64,000 bases of DNA from a virus, in the IMG/VR virus record IMGVR_UViG_3300035180_001344, positions 1 to 64,000 of that record; one strand, given 5' to 3'. This document shows, in pieces, positions 28,074 through 60,551 of this stretch. Position 1 is the stretch's first letter; every line of letters begins with the position of its first letter. The position numbers and the translations under genes were made by a program. The notes below the pieces were generated by a model. It made no database searches. It was not told the DNA's origin and saw only the letters and a list, made by a program, of their open reading frames with translations.

Positions 28074-28886
28074 TCAATCAGTTGCTGCTTTCTTCAACTT
28101 GTCTGTTGCACGAGCTGGACCCTTACGATAGCCCTTTGGGTTTGGTGCTTTTGGTGCTTTTGGTGCTTTTGGTGGAGGGTCTAATTTTGCCAAGAGCTTT
28201 GTTGCATCTTCCAACACCTTTTTGGTTGAGACAATCAATTCCTGCTTGTCTTCTGCTGCCTCTTTTTTAGACATGATTGCGACCATATTTTCAAGGCGAA
28301 CCTTAATCTCAGGTGTTTGCATCCACATATCTTCACCCTTGACAATTCGGTTGAATTCATCTTGTGACAAGAATGGGATATAGATGTCCTCTGCAAGCGC
28401 CTGAAACCATTTCACTGTTGCTTCAAGTTCAGACACCATTTCATTGCCTTTACCAATCAGTCCACCGTTGAAGTTGTGGAACATCATGACACAGTGCTCA
28501 TTCACTACCATCTCGTCTCCCGACAGGAAGATTAGCGTTCCCAGTGAGTGTGCCATACTTTCCAACACAGTAACAATCTTTGCAGCTGAATTGGTCATAG
28601 CGTTGATTAGTTGCACACCGGTATCCAACTGTCCACCAGGGGTGTTAAGGTGGATAAAGATCACATCTGCTGAACTTGCTGTTGTGATCTTGTGAATCAT
28701 GTCGGTGTAACCTTCTGGTTCACCAATCGCTTTGCTCAGATAAAAATGTGTATGTTGTGCAGAAAATACTTGATCAAACTGCTTGTACGGTTTCTTTTCC
28801 AGCTCTCCAAAAGGAAATTTGAGGTCATCTTGGTCTTCTTCTTCATCATGCTGACGAGGCTTTGCATAGACGGTTTTGTATCTCAT
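28074..28886 (-). CDS. ClpP-like serine protease
   Basis: The 270-residue protein has the ClpP/crotonase-like core. LNTPGGQLDTG aligns with the oxyanion region, SMAHSLGTLIFLSG contains the nucleophile Ser, and VMMFHNFNGG contains the catalytic His. The third acidic residue is not obvious. Extra N- and C-terminal parts are unlike host ClpP; the tail has an APKAPKAP repeat. ClpP homologues serve as prohead proteases in some phages. It lies 1 kb downstream of the tmRNA, so a role in degrading tagged proteins is also possible. Confidence 0.82.
   Translation of the reverse strand: MRYKTVYAKPRQHDEEEDQDDLKFPFGELEKKPYKQFDQVFSAQHTHFYLSKAIGEPEGYTDMIHKITTASSADVIFIHLNTPGGQLDTGVQLINAMTNSAAKIVTVLESMAHSLGTLIFLSGDEMVVNEHCVMMFHNFNGGLIGKGNEMVSELEATVKWFQALAEDIYIPFLSQDEFNRIVKGEDMWMQTPEIKVRLENMVAIMSKKEAAEDKQELIVSTKKVLEDATKLLAKLDPPPKAPKAPKAPNPKGYRKGPARATDKLKKAATD
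28138..28171. repeat. 9-base tandem repeat in the ClpP-like gene
   Basis: Three to four tandem copies of TTTGGTGCT on the plus strand encode the Ala-Pro-Lys repeat in the C-terminal tail. Such repeats are prone to slippage. Confidence 0.7.
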
Positions 28887-28944
28887 ATGTCTCCCTATGT
28901 TATGACAATTCACCCGTATTTACTGCAACACTGCCAGGGGGAAC

Positions 28945-29835
28945 TTAGGTAAACTGGTGAGGGGCAAATCCAATAATATCCTTAGGTCGAATTCCACTAA
29001 GAATCAATTGTTTGATAGCATCCGCAATTGAATGGCCTGTCACAATGTTATCATCAACAATCATTACGTACGCATCTCGTAGCGCCGATGAGTTAGGATT
29101 ATCACTCATTTGGATTGTGTTATAGTATGCCCTTCCATATAAGGATTGAGGAGCATCCATTTGTTTCTTGCGTGAATATGTTTTCAATGCTTTTTCAGCA
29201 GCAATGCGTTGAGTTTCAAGCTTTTCCCATGCATCAACGTCGTCTCGTTCGGCTGCTGCATCAACTTGGGCAACTAACGCATTATATTTTGCCTTCTCCG
29301 CAGCAAAATCATATGCGACACCTCTTTGATTCCTTACCAAGTGGTGTGAAAGTGACGGATATGGATTCTTCTTAAATGCGTCAACAATTTGAGCTCCTGA
29401 CAGTTTTGAAATCGCCGCTGCAACCAGTTGAGGAGTTGGTGATGAAGACGGCATCGGAACAACGATGAATTTACCAGTTCGCATCCAATTTTGGAACTGT
29501 GAAACAGCGACTCGCGATTGCTCCCACTTGTGATTCATTGTTTTGGTAGAAGTTCGCTGTGCGACTGATATTGCGTCGTTGATCATATCCTCAACGTCTT
29601 GTATCCGCTCTTCATTGCCAGCTCGTAATTTTAGCCGATCTTGTACAGGGAGATTGTCCTTTGTTGGTTCCTGAAATGCGTATACCACATATACGTCACG
29701 AACCTCTGGTGGGATTCCTGCTTGCTTAAATATCACCTCTTCTTCGGGTGTAGGAAGTACACGAACGCGGTGAGCTGCCACATTGGGTTTGAATTTAAGA
29801 GCATCACTGGGTGAAAGTAGTTCAAGCAATAACAT
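28945..29835 (-). CDS. phosphoribosyltransferase-domain protein
   Basis: I chose ATG 29835 with CAGGA upstream. The 296-residue protein has a C-terminal PRPP-binding loop, YVMIVDDNIVTGHSIADA, and an upstream IVVPMPSSS typical of ComF-like type I PRTases. The helical insertion near 175-235 is unusual. The substrate is unknown. It lies between tmRNA and ClpP-like genes. A late TATAAATA motif is 23 bases upstream. Confidence 0.7.
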   Translation of the reverse strand: MLLLELLSPSDALKFKPNVAAHRVRVLPTPEEEVIFKQAGIPPEVRDVYVVYAFQEPTKDNLPVQDRLKLRAGNEERIQDVEDMINDAISVAQRTSTKTMNHKWEQSRVAVSQFQNWMRTGKFIVVPMPSSSPTPQLVAAAISKLSGAQIVDAFKKNPYPSLSHHLVRNQRGVAYDFAAEKAKYNALVAQVDAAAERDDVDAWEKLETQRIAAEKALKTYSRKKQMDAPQSLYGRAYYNTIQMSDNPNSSALRDAYVMIVDDNIVTGHSIADAIKQLILSGIRPKDIIGFAPHQFT

Positions 29836-29857
29836 ACGTAAGTCCTGTTGATTCACG

Positions 29858-29865
29858 TATTTATA
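29858..29865 (-). promoter_or_regulatory. T4-late-like promoter TATAAATA
   Basis: Exact TATAAATA on the minus strand, 23 bases upstream of ATG 29835. Confidence 0.6.
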
Positions 29866-29881
29866 AGATCAATAACGGAAA

Positions 29882-29901
29882 GGGGCGCCCGAAAGCGCCC
29901 C
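29882..29901 (-). terminator. terminator after the tmRNA
   Basis: A perfect 7-bp GC stem (GGGGCGC with GCGCCCC), loop of 6, followed by TTTCCGTT on the minus strand, at the end of the tmRNA coding piece. Confidence 0.75.
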
Positions 29902-29954
29902 GATCTTGGATGATTTGATGAGAAGGTTATCCTGACCTCCCGCCGTACAGGTTT

Positions 29955-29987
29955 TTAAGCTGCGAGGGCGTAAACGTTTTCGTTTGC
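29955..29987 (-). other. tmRNA proteolysis-tag reading frame
   Basis: Ten codons plus TAA encode A-N-E-N-V-Y-A-L-A-A. The E. coli tag is ANDENYALAA, so the ClpX-recognised LAA end is kept. Confidence 0.92.
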
Positions 29988-30274
29988 GTTTATGTGTTTT
30001 GCTTGATTAACGGTCATCGCCTACCGTGTTGTCCACTTCAATACTCACCGCCCAATCGATAGCCTGGTCGCCCCCATCAAAAAGACTCTTATCCTGATCA
30101 CGCCACCTTGGTGACAAACTGTAATTAAACAAGTTTAGCGGCGGTATGTAATCGTCCCACTGTTCCAATCAAAATCCTTTTGGTGGAGGCGGCGGGAATC
30201 GAACCCGCGTCTTGAACTCTTTCTATCTGCTTCTTTCTTCAAGATTGCTCTTAAAGCTTTCACAACAGTAATGG

Positions 30275-30304
30275 TATTTACTCTGATTCGTCAGAAAAAG
30301 TCAA
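30275..30304 (-). promoter_or_regulatory. sigma70-like/late-like promoter for tmRNA
   Basis: TTGACT (30299-30304) and TAAATA (30275-30280), spacer 18, on the minus strand just upstream of the tmRNA acceptor piece. TAAATA also resembles the late motif. Confidence 0.55.
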
Positions 30305-31794: not shown

Positions 31795-32150
31795 GCTTGT
31801 CGGTAAACAAAGTGTTCTTTCATAGACGTCGGCGCAAAATAATCTCGTACGCATTGCTTCGCAATTTCGATATCAAATTCCTTGCACGAGAAAATATCAA
31901 AGTATGCTGTACCGTCAAGTTCCATAAAGTGACCACAAATATTACTAGTAGTGATCAACTGAACAAGACTATATCCTTGCTTTGGATCACCAGGAAGTAG
32001 GTATTCTATAATTGGTTCTCCGTGTGCAATCATGTCAATACGCTTAACCAAGTCTTTTGCAAACGTCTTGATTTCCAATTTGCTCTTGATACCGTCATTA
32101 CAACCAGCACAATCTAGCATGAGGTGATAACCCCAAGACTTTGTGTTCAT
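31791..32150 (-). CDS. S-adenosylmethionine decarboxylase-like protein (SpeD-type)
   Basis: The 119-residue protein has LVQLITTSNICGHFMELDG then AYFDIFSCKEFD, the arrangement of SpeD/SpeH proenzymes, in which a Ser becomes the pyruvoyl group and a Cys acts in catalysis. The usual ESH reads TSN, so self-cleavage chemistry may differ. It would make decarboxylated AdoMet for spermidine, which helps pack DNA. It overlaps Acb1 by ATGA. Confidence 0.65.
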   Translation of the reverse strand: MNTKSWGYHLMLDCAGCNDGIKSKLEIKTFAKDLVKRIDMIAHGEPIIEYLLPGDPKQGYSLVQLITTSNICGHFMELDGTAYFDIFSCKEFDIEIAKQCVRDYFAPTSMKEHFVYRQA

Positions 32151-32674
32151 TTCTTTCCCTTTGTTTTGTCAGCCCAGTCGAGATCTAAATCTTCGCTGTA
32201 CTCTTCAACAATCTTGATTTCTTTGACAGCATCTTTGATATCAGGTAGCTTTGTTTCATCCATATCACCAATATCGTACGACAATGTGATATGAGTTTTA
32301 TAGTCAGGGAAATCGTACGTAGCGTCGTGCTCTTTCATCAGTTTTTCATGACGAGCGTTCAACTTATCACAGGTGAACTTCATCACCAAACACCGCGTTG
32401 TATCTTCATCGCGGAGTTTGCCTCGTGATTCCCACACTTCCAACTTTGTTGGTGTGCCAATCCAAGCTGGATCAATCTTACCAAGCGGTTCATAATCAGG
32501 ACAATGCTTGCGACTGTACAAAACAGTGCAGTGCATTTTATCCGTCTTCAAACCGTTTGGAATATCATTGTCTACTATGTATTTGGCAACTGCGTCAGTC
32601 GTGCTTTTGTCAAAGTTTACTGCTGCGTACGTTCCTTTTGTTTGTTCTTGTTCTAATAGGTCTTGTACTTTCAT
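32147..32674 (-). CDS. acb1: Acb1-like 2H phosphodiesterase (anti-CBASS)
   Basis: The 175-residue protein has the two HxT motifs of the 2H family, MHCTVLYSRKH (H48, T50) and YKTHITLSYD (H128, T130). The surrounding YAAVNF, KLEVWES, RCLVMKF, HDATYDFPDY and EEYSEDLDLDW match the T4 57B/Acb1 pattern as I remember it. Acb1 cleaves cyclic di- and trinucleotide signals, blocking CBASS defence. It acts in the host cytoplasm early in infection. Confidence 0.82.
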   Translation of the reverse strand: MKVQDLLEQEQTKGTYAAVNFDKSTTDAVAKYIVDNDIPNGLKTDKMHCTVLYSRKHCPDYEPLGKIDPAWIGTPTKLEVWESRGKLRDEDTTRCLVMKFTCDKLNARHEKLMKEHDATYDFPDYKTHITLSYDIGDMDETKLPDIKDAVKEIKIVEEYSEDLDLDWADKTKGKK

Positions 32675-32685
32675 CGATTTCCTTG

Positions 32686-33753
32686 TTATGTCACGGGTTC
32701 AAACCCTGTGAGGCCCTCTTTTAATGTGTTGGGCACCACAGCTTGTCCATACATCCAGTGGGAAACTGTGGTCACGTGACCTTTGCGTACGTATTTACCA
32801 ACATTCTGTTTGAAGTGAATGAAGTGAAATGGCTCGTCGATTCGAACAACGTACCCTTCAATTTCACCACCTTCGGCAACACGCACCTTCTTGTACGCTT
32901 CGTATGCATCTTCAATTGCCTTCTTGTCATACACACCCCAGTAAATTACTGGGCACGGTGTAACTCCAAGGAGCTCGAACCATTGAAGCGTGTCTTTCCA
33001 CGTCAAAATGCAGTTCTTATCGTCCCAAATCGCAAACCCGTAAGCGTATGTGATAAGATCCTTGTATTGGATTGAATGCTTGGCAAACACGTTTTCCACG
33101 TTAACTCGCCATCCGTCGGGAATGTCTGATTGGATTCGACCATGGAACGCTCGGATCCAGTTCCGCGATGGGTGACCACCAGACGTAACAGAGCGAGCAT
33201 GGATGTGGTCGTTATACATCGACGTGTTTTCACCATCGAGCTTTTCCATCACAACAACCATCCTACCGTCAAATACATTGACGTCAGGCATCATCCGGTC
33301 ATCATCGTGCATACCAGGAGACCACGGCAGGTGGAATGTTCGTGGGTATTTGACGTGTTGGTCAAACAAATCAAGAACACCGCCTTGTCCCAGTACCTTC
33401 TGGACACTTTCGTCATTGAACAGTTCACCTCGCAGCCGACGCCCAGTTTCAAGGATCACGTTGCCCCACTTATCGTACACCGTGTCGTCGTACATGTGCT
33501 CGGGAATAACTGGCTTGGTGATCCCAGCGTGCTGCCGAATGTCCTCAACAGAGATTGAAGTCATTTCACAAGCCATGTGATGTTCGGCACACACAGAAGC
33601 GCCGTTGTTGAGGTAGTAACCTCCATCAGAAAAAAGACGGCGTTCGAGTATGTGATGGGCATCAACTGCCGGCTCACCGCACACTACACATTTGTGATTG
33701 TCACGAGCGAAAACGCCTTCTCGGAAAGCGTCTCGCGTCATTAAGGTATTCAT
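32686..33753 (-). CDS. HNH nuclease-RNA ligase fusion
   Basis: Residues 1-65 form an HNH-like module: CVVC (C22, C25), AHH (H33/H34) and CAEHH (C55, H58/H59). From about 160 on lies an RNA ligase/nucleotidyltransferase domain with MEKLDGENTSMY (nucleophile K171) and later EGYVVRIDEP (motif IV) and FHFIHFKQNVGKYV (motif V). RNA ligases repair host-cleaved tRNAs. The fusion with HNH is unusual. The last 11 residues are encoded by DNA resembling a tRNA T-arm. Confidence 0.8.
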   Translation of the reverse strand: MNTLMTRDAFREGVFARDNHKCVVCGEPAVDAHHILERRLFSDGGYYLNNGASVCAEHHMACEMTSISVEDIRQHAGITKPVIPEHMYDDTVYDKWGNVILETGRRLRGELFNDESVQKVLGQGGVLDLFDQHVKYPRTFHLPWSPGMHDDDRMMPDVNVFDGRMVVVMEKLDGENTSMYNDHIHARSVTSGGHPSRNWIRAFHGRIQSDIPDGWRVNVENVFAKHSIQYKDLITYAYGFAIWDDKNCILTWKDTLQWFELLGVTPCPVIYWGVYDKKAIEDAYEAYKKVRVAEGGEIEGYVVRIDEPFHFIHFKQNVGKYVRKGHVTTVSHWMYGQAVVPNTLKEGLTGFEPVT

Positions 33754-36080: not shown

Positions 36081-37980
36081 TAGGAATACCAAGTTCACGA
36101 GCTTTTTTGAGCTTGGTAGAACTATCTGCTGGGTCAGCCGCCACAACCAGGTGCGTTTTACTGGACACACCAGAAGCAACCCTTCCACCAAGTTCTTCGA
36201 TTTTTGTATCAAGTGTCTTGTCACGAAACCCTGTGATAACAACATCCTTGCCAGTTAGGTTACCAACTTTCTTGGCCTCGAATGTCTTAATCGTGACAAA
36301 GTCTTTGATCCAGCCATAAAACTCCATGAAAACTGGGTAACCAGCTGCGACTTTGGCAGCAGACTTCTGCTCGAACCCTTCAACTTGCATCACCGCTACA
36401 ACACTGGCACATTTGGTCATATCGCCATGGAACGCTTCGTACAGTTTCTTCATCTTCCTAACACCAATGCCTCGGCCAAACGATGCGTGTGCACCCATCA
36501 GTTCGTACAAAGGAATGTTGGTAAACCGAGTGCGCATTGCAGTGAAAATCTTCTTGCCGATCACTCGTGAACCAACGAGGTTACTGATATCTTCTTGCGA
36601 CAAAGGAATGATCTTTTCAGGGACATCAAATCCCATATCAAACATCTCACGCAGATTGCCTTCACCGAGTCCGGGAACGTCAATCGATGCAAAGAAATCG
36701 TTCAGTCGTTCGAACTTGACAGTATCATTGCTTGATGCGTCAGCAACAATCAGATCAACGCCTGTGTCAGTCCACGTAGCAGTTGTGTCATCTGGCATTT
36801 GCGGTGCAACAGGCTTGACAGTTTCGAGAATGAACGGAATCACATCACCGCTGCGTGTGATTTTGATCAATGCACCAGGACCAATTCCAGATTCCTTAAT
36901 GAACTTTGCATTGAAGCCAGTTAGGTTCGTAATCGTCACGCCAACGAGATCAACTGGCAGAATCTGGACTCGGGGCTTATAGTAGCCGTCCTTGGACAGA
37001 TTCCACTCAACATTGCGCACAGTGGCGATTGCAAGGTTAGAAGCATCAGCAACCTTGAACTTCACAGCGTATTCTGGATTGAGATCATCCGTCGCCATCC
37101 GCGCACGAACTTTGGCACTGTCGACTTCAATTACTTGGCCGTCGAGCTCATATTTTGAGTTGGCGCGGCGATCGTTGAGCAGCTTGGTCAATTTCGTGTC
37201 GTCCCACTTTTCAGCTTGACCGTACACATAGTCAACAACCGTAAATCCCCATGCTTCAAGTTGGTCCAGTTGGTAACCTTTCCCCATCGTTGAGCCAACA
37301 ATCTCATACACAACTGTGTCGATTGCTTTGTATACTTCTGGATGGTTTTCTGACGAGTTCATCAGTCCAGAAACCATGTTGCGAGGGTTCTTGTAGATTC
37401 GGCCTGCGCGTGCGAACTTACCAGTGTTAACCTTGGCAAACGAAGCAGGCGAAATGATGTTTTCTGCACGAATTACAACGACCTTGTCGGTATTGATCGA
37501 CTTGGGGATGTTGTGGATCTTTGAAGCGTGCCGCGTGATATCAGCACCCTCTTCACCATCACCACGTGAATATGCAATTTGCAGCTTGCCGTCGGCGCCG
37601 TACACCAGCATCACACTTGCACCGTCGAGCTTATCAGAGATTACAAGCAATTCGCCTGTAAGGTTGTTTTTGGCCACCCATTTGGCGTAGTCACCTTGGT
37701 ACACTTGATTGAGTGAACCCATTTTGTATGGCAGTTTGATTTTGCCGCCACGGACTTGTGAGCCAACGCCGGTAAAATACTTGTCAGCAGGCGACAAACG
37801 TTGTGCGTATTGACGCAAAGCGTCGTACTGGGCATCAGCAATGAACGACTCTTCATCGTTGTAGTACAGCTCATCCGCTGCAACCAGTAACTCCAAAATT
37901 GTGGAGATGGAAAAGTCCTCGTACGAGCCGAGTACGAACATTTCTTTGGTCAGTTGCTTGCCTTTGGCGATGGTCAGCAT
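36046..37980 (-). CDS. ligA: NAD-dependent DNA ligase with BRCT domain
   Basis: The 644-residue protein (ATG 37980 behind GGAG) has the NMN-binding Ia motif (YYNDEESFIADAQYD) and the nucleophile SDKLDGAS (K117). OB-fold and HhH regions follow, then a C-terminal BRCT domain from about 575. The four-Cys zinc finger of bacterial LigA is missing; that part reads PQMPDDTTATW. It seals nicks using NAD, which may explain the phage's NAD genes. T4 itself uses an ATP ligase. Confidence 0.93.
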   Translation of the reverse strand: MLTIAKGKQLTKEMFVLGSYEDFSISTILELLVAADELYYNDEESFIADAQYDALRQYAQRLSPADKYFTGVGSQVRGGKIKLPYKMGSLNQVYQGDYAKWVAKNNLTGELLVISDKLDGASVMLVYGADGKLQIAYSRGDGEEGADITRHASKIHNIPKSINTDKVVVIRAENIISPASFAKVNTGKFARAGRIYKNPRNMVSGLMNSSENHPEVYKAIDTVVYEIVGSTMGKGYQLDQLEAWGFTVVDYVYGQAEKWDDTKLTKLLNDRRANSKYELDGQVIEVDSAKVRARMATDDLNPEYAVKFKVADASNLAIATVRNVEWNLSKDGYYKPRVQILPVDLVGVTITNLTGFNAKFIKESGIGPGALIKITRSGDVIPFILETVKPVAPQMPDDTTATWTDTGVDLIVADASSNDTVKFERLNDFFASIDVPGLGEGNLREMFDMGFDVPEKIIPLSQEDISNLVGSRVIGKKIFTAMRTRFTNIPLYELMGAHASFGRGIGVRKMKKLYEAFHGDMTKCASVVAVMQVEGFEQKSAAKVAAGYPVFMEFYGWIKDFVTIKTFEAKKVGNLTGKDVVITGFRDKTLDTKIEELGGRVASGVSSKTHLVVAADPADSSTKLKKARELGIPIMTKDEFLASL

Positions 37981-51648: not shown

Positions 51649-52596
51649 TTAGTCCAACATTTCTCGAATTGATGCACCAGTTGCAACACGGCTAATTGTT
51701 TCTGCAAGCAAGTTCGCCATAGACACCTGGCGAACCTTTTCACTCATCTCTTCTGGCAGAGGAATTGTATCTGTAACTACCAGCTGTTGCAGGTTTGAGT
51801 TATCAAGATTTACAGATGCGCTGCCTGATAATACGGCGTGGGATGCATATGATACAACGCGACGAGCTCCACCAACGTTAATCAATGCGTCAGCTGCTTT
51901 TCCCAACGTCCCAGCGGTATCAACCATATCATCAATCATCACACACGTACGATCGGTTACATCGCCAATAATATGCATTACCTCTGACACACCAGCTTTC
52001 GGTCGACGCTTGTCAACAATCGCCAGGTCCATGTCTTTTAGATTCTTTGCAACTGCACGTGCACGTGCCACACCACCAACGTCTGGTGAAACAATGATTG
52101 GATTTTCATCCATCCATTTGTGATAAATGTCAGATACAAACAAGTTGGTTGCAGAGATGTTGTCAACGGGGATATGAAAGAATCCTTGGATCTGTGTAGC
52201 ATGGAGATCAACAGTAATGACGTGATCAATCCCCACTGCTTCGATCATTGTTGCTGCTACCCGAGCAGAAATAGGTACACGAGAATAGCCGGGTCGGCGA
52301 TCTTGTCGAGCGTATCCGAAATAAGGAATTACAGCAATGATGTCTTGTGCTGATGACCGACGAAGAGCATCAGCGATCAAAATCAACTCCATTAGATTGT
52401 CGTTTGCGGGTGCACATGTTGGTTGAATGATGAATGCCTTACATCCACGAACATTGTCTTTGATTTCAACACGAATTTCTCCGTCGCTAAATCGTTCAAC
52501 GTCCATTCGTTCCAAGGGAAGATTCAACTTTGAAGCAATTTGTTGGGCGAGCTTGCGGTTTGCTGTTCCAGCAAACAATTTGATATCACCGATCAT
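51649..52596 (-). CDS. prs: ribose-phosphate pyrophosphokinase (PRPP synthetase)
   Basis: The 315-residue enzyme has all Prs motifs: RFSDGEIRVEI, YFGYARQDRRPG (ATP/Mg), VDLHATQIQGFF, VVSPDVGGVARAR, DKRRPK and VMIDDMVDTAGTLGKA (PRPP loop). It makes PRPP for NAD salvage and nucleotide synthesis. In some phages a Prs-like enzyme makes ADP-ribose pyrophosphate for NAD repair, so the exact substrate is open. I chose ATG 52596 behind AGGAG. Confidence 0.93.
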   Translation of the reverse strand: MIGDIKLFAGTANRKLAQQIASKLNLPLERMDVERFSDGEIRVEIKDNVRGCKAFIIQPTCAPANDNLMELILIADALRRSSAQDIIAVIPYFGYARQDRRPGYSRVPISARVAATMIEAVGIDHVITVDLHATQIQGFFHIPVDNISATNLFVSDIYHKWMDENPIIVSPDVGGVARARAVAKNLKDMDLAIVDKRRPKAGVSEVMHIIGDVTDRTCVMIDDMVDTAGTLGKAADALINVGGARRVVSYASHAVLSGSASVNLDNSNLQQLVVTDTIPLPEEMSEKVRQVSMANLLAETISRVATGASIREMLD

Positions 52597-52801
52597 GCAC
52601 ATCTCCTGAGTGTAGGTATTTCCGTGAATTTACATATATGTATGTTCCACTCACCATACTAACTAACGCTGCGTAGGGGTGAAACAGAACAATATCGAAC
52701 GTGATCAACGACAGAATTGGAATGATACCCAGCCCTATCAAAATAATCAACCCCATCATTCGTTGAAATTTTACGTACTCTCGAATAACCCGTGTACTCA
52801 T
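52586..52801 (-). CDS. small membrane protein
   Basis: The 71-residue protein has two hydrophobic spans (about 15-36 and 42-58) with a basic N-terminus, typical of a small inner-membrane protein. It overlaps the PRPP synthetase start by 11 bases. Confidence 0.55.
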   Translation of the reverse strand: MSTRVIREYVKFQRMMGLIILIGLGIIPILSLITFDIVLFHPYAALVSMVSGTYIYVNSRKYLHSGDVHDR

Positions 52802-55256: not shown

Positions 55257-56288
55257 ATGTCTCACAAATACAAACTCCTCGTCTTTATTGGTCGGTTTCA
55301 ACCTGTCCACATCGGTCACGTCCAAGTAATCCAAGCTGCATTGTCAAAAGCCGATAATGTTCTGGTTCTTGTTGGTAGTTCCAATCAACCACGAACTGCA
55401 AAGAACCCATGGACATTTGCTGAGAGATCTGGAATGATCTCTATGTCTTTGGAACAACAAGAAGCAAAACGGGTTGACATGATTCCCCTTCGAGACCAGG
55501 CATACAACGATCAAAAGTGGGCTGTCTCTGTTCAGCAACATGTAGAAAATCATCTCGCTGCACTTGGACTTGATCCAAAGAGCAATGTGGGGATCATCGG
55601 TCACAGCAAAGATGAGAGCTCGTACTACCTCAAAATGTTCCCTCAATGGGATCTGGTAGAGCACGAAATGAACGAAGCAGTCAGTGCTACCGACCTACGC
55701 CGTGTGATGTTTGAAGAGATGAGCCTGAAATTTTTGACAGGCGTCGTCCCTGCACCTGTCGTCCAGGGCATTACAGCATTCAAGCAAACGCCAGAATATG
55801 CTGGGTTAAAGCGTGAATACGACATGATCAAGAAATACAAAAAGTCATGGGAAGTTGCTCCATATCCAGTGACATTTGTTGCTTCTGACGCAATCGTAAT
55901 TCAATCCGGTCATATTTTGCTGATTGAGCGAGGAGCAGCTCCCGGTGAAGGCCTGTGGGCTCTCCCTGGTGGGTTCTTGAATCAAAATGAGTACATTGAG
56001 GACGGAATGCTGCGTGAGTTGCGCGAGGAGACGAAGATCAAAGTCCCCATGCCAGTACTTCGTGGTTCAATTAAAGCATCTCGTGTATTTGACCGGCCAG
56101 ACCGGGATCCACGTGGTCGCATGCTTTCCCACGCATATTTGATTGAACTTCCGCCAGGTGAACTTCCTCTAATCAAGGGATCTGATGATGCTCGCAAGGC
56201 GAGATGGGTTCCGATTGCTGACATTGACGAATCGCAAATGTACGCAGATCACTTCCATATCATTAACTACTTTCTTGGTAGTCGTTGA
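55257..56288 (+). CDS. bifunctional NMN adenylyltransferase-Nudix hydrolase
   Basis: The 343-residue protein has an N-terminal nucleotidyltransferase domain (GRFQPVHIGHVQVIQAA with the HxGH motif, later GIIGHSKDESSYY). Its C-terminal Nudix domain has the box GGFLNQNEYIEDGMLRELREE. Bifunctional NMNAT/ADP-ribose pyrophosphatases occur in Synechocystis, Francisella and phages. It makes NAD from NMN and hydrolyses ADP-ribose, so it can rebuild NAD used by defence systems. Confidence 0.93.
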   Translation: MSHKYKLLVFIGRFQPVHIGHVQVIQAALSKADNVLVLVGSSNQPRTAKNPWTFAERSGMISMSLEQQEAKRVDMIPLRDQAYNDQKWAVSVQQHVENHLAALGLDPKSNVGIIGHSKDESSYYLKMFPQWDLVEHEMNEAVSATDLRRVMFEEMSLKFLTGVVPAPVVQGITAFKQTPEYAGLKREYDMIKKYKKSWEVAPYPVTFVASDAIVIQSGHILLIERGAAPGEGLWALPGGFLNQNEYIEDGMLRELREETKIKVPMPVLRGSIKASRVFDRPDRDPRGRMLSHAYLIELPPGELPLIKGSDDARKARWVPIADIDESQMYADHFHIINYFLGSR

Positions 56289-57489: not shown

Positions 57490-58600
57490 CCCTCATCGCT
57501 GAACAAAATCACTCTGCCGAGAGGTTCTGCAAAGCAAATCAGGTAAAAAGACCCTGTTGACTTCAAACCAGAAATCAATTAAAGTCTTCGAACTGAAACA
57601 AATTCTCTGAACGGAAGTTCAGCGTTAATGCAAGTTAACGAGACATATTGGTCAGCTGTGGTACTTGATACGACGTCAGTCGTAACCACACAAGACAAAA
57701 GAATACGAGGTATAGCTCGGATAAGCGTGGTAACACGTAAAAGGTATGGTCCTACACCGTATCGCCATCTTAAAAATGGTCAACCTATACAAGCCTAAGC
57801 ATCTCCTGAAAGGGAGTCGTCGGTGTAGACCGGCGCTAAGTGCGAAGCAGGTGTTGTGGAAAGAACGTTGGCCTAAGTGCCAGGATGCCGAAAGGCTACT
57901 GGGAACGCCGGTCGATGAAGAGTAACGGGTGGTGCCGACCTCACAACTAAACCAACTTGCCAACATGTATTGCTAAAGGTAGTACGACTGTCTGAGTCTC
58001 GCAAACTAAGGCTGGCGTGCAGAATGAGAGGGCTGGGGTTAGGGAAACCTGATCACGGATCTCAAAATTCGATTGAGTAGCCGGCAGGCGAAAGGTATGA
58101 GGTGTGTTGTATTGTGTGCGCCAAAAGTGTATACAGCAACGGGACGCACACATCTCGGTAGGTTATGTCCAGGGATGGACAATCAACTCTAATTTGATTA
58201 CATCTAAAAACGCAAAGTTGCGTCCGACGTAGTGTGAAAATGGCTTAATCCTTTGGCTGAAAAGCAACAAAGGTAACCAAAGCTCGCAAGGCAGAGGTTA
58301 TTGATAAGGAGTCGCACATAGGGTGTAGCAGCCCGAACAGCTCGCAAGGTTGGTGGTAGACAAGATATCGAATAGCATTACGTGACAAGTGAAACGCCAC
58401 ACTTCAAAAAAGGCAGTCATGGTGGCTTACAACCTCGCGGTTGTGGAAACGAGTAGAACCTAGGGTGTCGCAGCCTATTAGGATAATGACTCAAAAGAGC
58501 TGCTCATAATGGTGTATTCTCAACCATATAAAACTGCACTGTTCTCGAAAGAGAACTTTGCCGTTTGCGGTTCTGGTAACTGTAAACGGCAAAGACATAT
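57490..58600 (+). ncRNA. large ornate noncoding RNA, GOLLD/ROOL-like candidate
   Basis: About 1.1 kb without a credible ORF holds over twenty perfect hairpins on the plus strand, many capped by GNRA-type tetraloops. Examples are CTGAAC-GGAA-GTTCAG (57607-57622), TACGAC-GTCA-GTCGTA inside TGTGGT/ACCACA (57657-57690), CGTG-GTAA-CACG (57726-57737), GCC-GAAA-GGC (57887-57896), TGTGTGCG/CGCACACA (58113-58152) and GTTCTC-GAAA-GAGAAC (58541-58556). A motif AGGGTGTMGCAGCC repeats at 58320 and 58462, and GCTCGCAAGG at 58282 and 58340. It has its own promoter and ends beside tRNA-Met, the usual setting of giant phage RNAs. The class assignment is inference. Confidence 0.72.
58557..58593 (+). other. 11-bp hairpin between the large RNA and tRNA-Met
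   Basis: TTTGCCGTTT (58557-58566) pairs perfectly with AAACGGCAAA (58584-58593). It may end the large RNA or serve as a processing signal ahead of the tRNA; no T-run follows. Confidence 0.6.
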
Positions 58601-60475: not shown

Positions 60476-60551
60476 GCGCTCGTAGCTTAGCGGTCCAAAG
60501 CTGGGAACTCTAAATTCTTGATCGTGGGTTCGAATCCCACCGGGCGCACCA
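60476..60551 (+). tRNA. amber suppressor tRNA (anticodon CTA), CCA encoded
   Basis: The cloverleaf is complete and 73 nt long: acceptor GCGCTCG/CGGGCGC, D-arm GCTT/AAGC with GG in the loop, anticodon stem GGGAA/TTCTT with loop CTCTAAA, variable GATC, T-arm GTGGG-TTCGAAT-CCCAC, discriminator A, then CCA (60549-60551). The anticodon CTA pairs with UAG, so it reads amber codons. The body resembles arginine tRNA, but the charged amino acid is unknown. Confidence 0.9.

Follow-up and report, generated by a model that had tools for sequence, protein, structure and literature searches.

The stretch of 64,000 nucleotides analysed here (the window), which makes up nearly all of a 65,094-base IMG/VR virus record, contains a complete circularly permuted tmRNA gene at 30277-29864 on the minus strand, as identified by ARAGORN and Rfam. 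Very probably, this is a functional, phage-owned, two-piece tmRNA gene of the beta type that belongs to a jumbo phage lineage and acts via the host machinery. The observations behind this explanation are the gene anatomy and the conservation of the structure, the tag frame and the locus, from which transcription, processing, charging, tagging and a benefit to the phage are predicted.

ARAGORN calls a permuted tmRNA at 29864-30273 with the tag peptide ANENVYALAA. The gene scores 122.4 bits (E 2e-23, cut-off 47) with the Rfam model RF04321 (tmRNA_permuted) and 104.1 bits (E 1.3e-30, cut-off 84) with RF01850 (beta_tmRNA). The alpha_tmRNA model gives 42.8 bits, under its cut-off of 50, and the one-piece model RF00023 reaches at most 24.6 bits (cut-off 47) across the whole record. 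The window tmRNA is of the beta class, in that the beta model is above threshold and the alpha model below it, the cyano model having no separate score. A first-pass annotation had placed a phage-encoded permuted tmRNA with this tag at 29882-30265 and had named poor covariance-model scores as one half of the outcome that would speak against it; the scores lie well over the cut-offs, and the proposed span matches the gene to within about 20 nt at each end.

On the minus strand, the T-arm (GCGGG-TTCGATT-CCCGC, 30208-30192), the 3' acceptor strand (CGCCTCC, 30191-30185) and A73 with the encoded CCA (30184-30181) come first, followed by an intervening sequence (IVS) of 105 nt (30180-30076), expected to be removed, and then by the 5' acceptor strand (GGGGGCG, 30075-30069) and the tag frame. 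The coordinates thus bear out the order of elements read in the first pass, as well as the proposed pairing of GGGGGCG with CGCCTCC across the permuted halves, which extends over seven of seven pairs and includes a G3-U70 pair. The strands of helix P2 are GTTCAA (3' strand, 30217-30212) and TTGGGC (5' strand, 30055-30050). A putative acceptor piece would extend from the P2 3' strand to the CCA (30181-30269), with a 5' end guessed from the promoter, and a putative coding piece would comprise the 5' acceptor, the P2 5' strand and the mRNA-like domain (29882-30075), its 3' end being placed from the sequence at or before the terminator. The tag frame (29987-29955) starts at resume codon GCA at 29987 and encodes ANENVYALAA followed by TAA, and so ends in ALAA as had been noted. 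The gene is flanked by a 65-codon frame (30475-30281) on one side and by a gene for a protein of 303 residues (29856-28945) on the other. It shares with the permuted beta tmRNAs of Rfam (RF01850/RF04321) the order of the halves, the encoded CCA, the IVS, the tag and the terminator, but differs from them in being phage-borne and in its IVS of 105 nt, compared to roughly 30 in the beta model.

The virus record encodes a DNA polymerase, ribonucleotide reductase, DnaB, primase, topoisomerase II and NAD-dependent ligase. Relatives of the topoisomerase with 58-77% identity (and one 100% copy besides) are found on viral contigs, the longest with 350,089 bases; among named phages the best match is 34% identical. 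The record is therefore most likely a fragment from an uncultured jumbo phage lineage. When the whole relative records were searched with RF04321, 14 of the 18 contigs recruited by topoisomerase proved to have a permuted tmRNA. The other four (G009, G039, G042 and G043) are uninformative, since they stop before the tmRNA site, either less than about 0.5 kb from the ClpP gene or inside the 303-residue gene. With identical copies counted once, the tmRNA is carried by 11 distinct members, the window among them, and every member that clearly extends to the site has it. The shared gene order is tmRNA, (303-residue gene), ClpP-like protease, primase, small genes, topoisomerase large subunit, phosphoesterase and topoisomerase subunit A, although no primase was detected in G040. 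The uncharacterised 303-residue gene between tmRNA and ClpP (28945-29856, minus strand) has a homologue at the same site in G037, and another in G009, a near-identical contig; towards its C-terminus, VMIVDDNIVTGHSIADAI is similar to the loop that binds PRPP (UPRTase, E 0.005, below the cut-off). In this little-studied phage family, the tmRNA thus occupies one conserved spot throughout.

The tRNA-like halves, with the IVS removed, were aligned for 19 phage and two bacterial permuted tmRNAs. In these 21 sequences, 95.2% of the cells in the P2, T and acceptor helices are paired, and double-sided changes occur in 14 of the 18 helix pairs. The covariation score is 0.591, versus 0.172 for shuffled controls, which leave the relatedness among the sequences in place, and at most 0.098 when the partners are slid. 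Acceptor sequences differ, yet all 21 sequences retain seven of seven acceptor pairs, a figure somewhat favoured by the fact that the 5' acceptor was located partly by complementarity; its placement does agree with the Rfam coordinates and with a fixed spacing to a conserved T(C/T)GA motif. G3-U70, the pair that confers alanine identity, is invariant (21/21, U-G at columns 35/41), while acceptor pairs 4, 5 and 6 covary through double-sided changes. In L096, L099, L103, L104, L105 and L012 the beta model is the best one, yet it scores under the beta threshold. Recurrence with compensatory changes in 20 other sequences, together with the z-score of -4.3 for the acceptor-IVS fold (see below), places the structure far beyond chance.

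Since the locus, the seven acceptor pairs, G3-U70 and the TAA-closed tag frames have all been kept, the window tmRNA appears to be a phage gene that works and is inherited vertically, and neither a prophage scar nor a decoy. The ssrA gene is a common integration site, and many of the 55 T-arm pattern matches among viral contigs correspond to one-piece tmRNAs or to stretches lacking a tmRNA call, as could be expected if a host ssrA fragment had been left behind by integration or mis-excision. The window gene, however, is complete and lies inside a block of replication genes, and it occurs at one locus with compensatory changes throughout the lineage, so that a passive scar has next to no probability. 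We rather consider it a fixed, compensatorily evolving gene of the jumbo lineage than a sporadic acquisition, and this fixation argues that ribosome rescue matters to jumbo phages of this lineage. In genome contigs, a first tmRNA pattern gave no matches and a looser one matched only Microvirga and Herbaspirillum, too few for a tree of the gene's origin.

The tags of the 11 lineage members differ in sequence and vary in length from 10 to 17 codons, and in all 11 the frame is intact and closed by TAA. Ten start with Ala-Asn, the exception being AASND in L103, and nine end in -AA, with L100 ending in MVA and L105 in LAL. Judged from its ALAA terminus, ClpXP-type recognition of the window tag is plausible, but not universal in the lineage. 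The intact tag frame, conserved in 11 of 11 members, and the retained alanine identity also bear on the idea that the phage RNA acts as a decoy, competing with host trans-translation and blocking it. A precedent exists in phage DS6A, whose tmRNA-like RNA lacks a CDS and reportedly inhibits the tmRNA of E. coli (PMC11915505), but the conservation of tag and alanine identity makes a decoy role highly improbable for the window gene.

A putative promoter (30276-30304, minus strand) with TTGACT (30304-30299), a 17-nt spacer and GTAAAT (30281-30276) is located next to the tmRNA gene. Its -10 element is weak, and it was not flagged in a consensus promoter scan of the window. A promoter-like motif, defined as TTGACN or TTGATA, 17-18 nt and then TATAAA, GTAAAT or TTAAAT, is found right upstream of the tmRNA in eight of the 11 lineage members. 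At the other end, GGGGCGCTTTCGGGCGCCCC followed by TTTCCGTTAT (29882-29901, minus strand) forms an intrinsic terminator. A T4 late promoter was considered and rejected for the tmRNA: TATAAATA has five occurrences in the window, where 1.1 would be expected, but none of them is at the tmRNA gene.

In the window gene, acceptor stem and IVS fold together into one long hairpin of -41.5 kcal/mol (z -4.3), with none of 200 shuffled sequences folding as well, and the same region of five tested relatives is also a single hairpin (z -3.7 to -8.1). The IVS has nearly vanished in some relatives: only ATCAAC (6 nt) separates ACC from the 5' acceptor in L096/L098 and also in L126, and the IVS after ACC is 15 nt in L099 and 14 nt in L101. 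In all of these a small loop caps the acceptor stem, and such relatives, with IVS loops of 6-15 nt, provide natural tests of the minimum sequence needed for two-piece processing. The T-loop of L096 is unusual (GGCGGTA).

Downstream lies a gene for a ClpP-like serine protease of 279 residues (28074-28913, minus strand; PF00574, 42 bits; phrog_1827 ATP-dependent protease, 1.2e-54). Ser123, His146 and Asp195 are invariant in 16 aligned phage ClpP-like proteins, so that, as judged from the alignment, the Ser-His-Asp catalytic triad is conserved. This neighbourhood raises an addition to our best explanation, not a replacement of it, namely that the phage tag steers stalled chains to the downstream phage protease. 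In each of the 11 distinct contigs the tmRNA shares its strand with the ClpP gene and lies upstream of it, either immediately or almost so, and the linkage spans topoisomerase identities down to about 59%. Furthermore, most tags end in hydrophobic-Ala-Ala, the catalytic residues are invariant, and relatives have a separate T4-type prohead protease (PF03420), so that the ClpP-like protein need not be the capsid protease. On the other hand, a terminator stands between tmRNA and protease gene, the two are unlinked in G001 and BUCT-ZZ01, and Xanthomonas jumbo phage XacN1 has a ClpP-primase pair without an adjacent tmRNA: its ClpP gene adjoins primase, no tmRNA lies between ligase and ClpP, and its permuted tmRNA sits elsewhere. 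As tmRNA and ClpP are apart in these three phages, their adjacency seems to have arisen once, in one lineage, and it may be fortuitous. Steering to the phage protease is a possible reading, drawn from one gene arrangement, which we regard as unlikely; equally unlikely is the wider notion that the jumbo lineage has its own nascent-chain quality control, by which stalled host or phage proteins would be tagged and destroyed independently of host ClpP. The linkage is nevertheless a concrete arrangement open to experiment. In the literature searched, which consisted mostly of papers available without subscription, no reported link between phage tmRNA and ClpP was found.

For the phage-owned two-piece tmRNA itself, we propose the following mode of action. 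Transcription would probably start at the gene's own promoter and stop at its own terminator, yielding a single precursor; the acceptor strands would pair across the IVS, itself an extension of the helix. Removal of the IVS by host RNase P and 3' nucleases, with trimming at CCA, would then leave an acceptor and a coding piece held together by the acceptor and P2 helices. A two-piece tmRNA is known from Caulobacter (Keiler et al. 2000, as cited in PMC8012679), and the processing of permuted tmRNA genes has been described (PMC11915505). Host AlaRS would charge the tmRNA through G3-U70, host SmpB would bring it to stalled ribosomes, and the stalled chains would receive ANENVYALAA as a mark for ClpXP-type proteolysis; alanylation, SmpB delivery, tagging and proteolysis are the steps expected from established tmRNA biology. 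The phage copy might thereby replace the host tmRNA or compete with it, as proposed in the first pass. A search for SmpB gave nothing in the 65-kb window record, itself a fragment, in the 350-kb relatives or in the other tmRNA-bearing relatives tested, and host SmpB would therefore be required. The benefit to the phage is probably ribosome rescue sustained through a long infection while host RNA decays, which is in line with large phage tRNA sets; ARAGORN finds 56 tRNAs in the relative G044 and 51 in G001.

Another source of demand was considered, in which phage amber suppressor (CUA) tRNAs would give rise to readthrough and hence to non-stop ribosomes that the tmRNA clears. CUA tRNAs are present in the window, G044, G001, XacN1 (annotated tRNA-Sup), BUCT-ZZ01 and Phosso, TAG closes three of the 76 listed window ORFs, and SsrA reportedly deals with the readthrough caused by suppressors (Ueda et al. 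2002, as cited in PMC8012679). However, CcrPW and G030 have a permuted tmRNA without any stop-anticodon tRNA, and G004 and CM1 have CUA tRNAs without a permuted tmRNA. Across the eight jumbo genomes searched with ARAGORN, CUA tRNAs do not track the permuted tmRNA, and neither the window nor G044 shows wholesale reassignment of TAG. Suppressor readthrough is thus an unlikely explanation of the gene. As a separate observation, a GOLLD RNA (58099-58526, plus strand, 204 bits) is followed about 2 kb later by a CUA tRNA (60476-60551, plus strand). GOLLD and CUA tRNA are paired in G044 too, and XacN1 has two tRNA-Sup genes, a permuted tmRNA and GOLLD within about 3 kb.

The first-pass annotation had named a few bacterial lineages as the known carriers of permuted tmRNAs, and its suggestion that a phage copy is unusual holds only in part. 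The two-piece form is indeed rare, but phage copies have already been published: two-piece ssrA genes were described in 2022 for OM43 phage Melnitz and Pelagibacter myophages, and among the 133 unique phage tmRNA structures of a phage database from 2021, 53 were called two-piece (PMC9004378). Phage-encoded permuted tmRNA is itself known, and the window gene joins that kind. The Melnitz gene resembles it as a permuted tmRNA borne by a large T4-like myophage, but is of the alphaproteobacterial type and is reported with a glutamine riboswitch and a transcription coactivator (PMC9004378), whereas the window tmRNA is of the beta type and located by ClpP, primase and topoisomerase II. Closer in type is XacN1, a cultured phage with a beta-type permuted tmRNA (AP018399, 37231-37530), suppressor tRNAs and GOLLD, which differs in having the tmRNA in a tRNA cluster, away from ClpP. 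Other permuted tmRNAs in cultured phages were identified at 356026-356325 of XacN1, in CcrPW (MH588545, 140753-141047) and in Phosso (PV764938, 349596-350198); the GenBank annotation has no tmRNA feature at XacN1 37231-37530 or at the CcrPW and Phosso loci. XacN1 appears suited to studying two-piece processing, tagging and knockouts. Two features seem to be new within the papers searched, namely a permuted tmRNA fixed next to ClpP in a jumbo lineage, and relatives in which the IVS has almost disappeared.

Huge phages with both tmRNA and SmpB have been described (PMC7162821). Huge phage LR756504 encodes ribosome rescue, as the window phage does, but with a one-piece tmRNA and SmpB, in contrast to the permuted tmRNA of the window lineage, in which SmpB was not detected. 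In this 636-kb genome, 280507-280863 and 540105-540527 correspond to the one-piece tmRNA call (65.2 bits) and the phage's own SmpB; LR745206 and LR756502 encode SmpB as well.

Several other genes of the window may be mentioned. An Acb1-family anti-CBASS protein (32147-32674, minus strand; PF23474, 2e-34) is encoded a few genes upstream of the tmRNA, a position kept in many relatives. A protein with an RNA ligase domain and, at its N-terminus, a possible HNH-like motif (32686-33753, minus strand) is also encoded upstream of the tmRNA in most relatives reaching that far. SpoVR, DUF444 (YeaH-like) and PrkA kinase genes, a bacterial stress-related set, occur together in this phage (42555-47651, minus strand); a search for related loci from the SpoVR gene found nothing. 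Finally, a PRPP synthetase (51649-52602, minus strand) and a nucleotidyltransferase-Nudix (NMNAT-like) protein (55257-56288, plus strand) are suggestive of NAD salvage or NAD restoration in infection.
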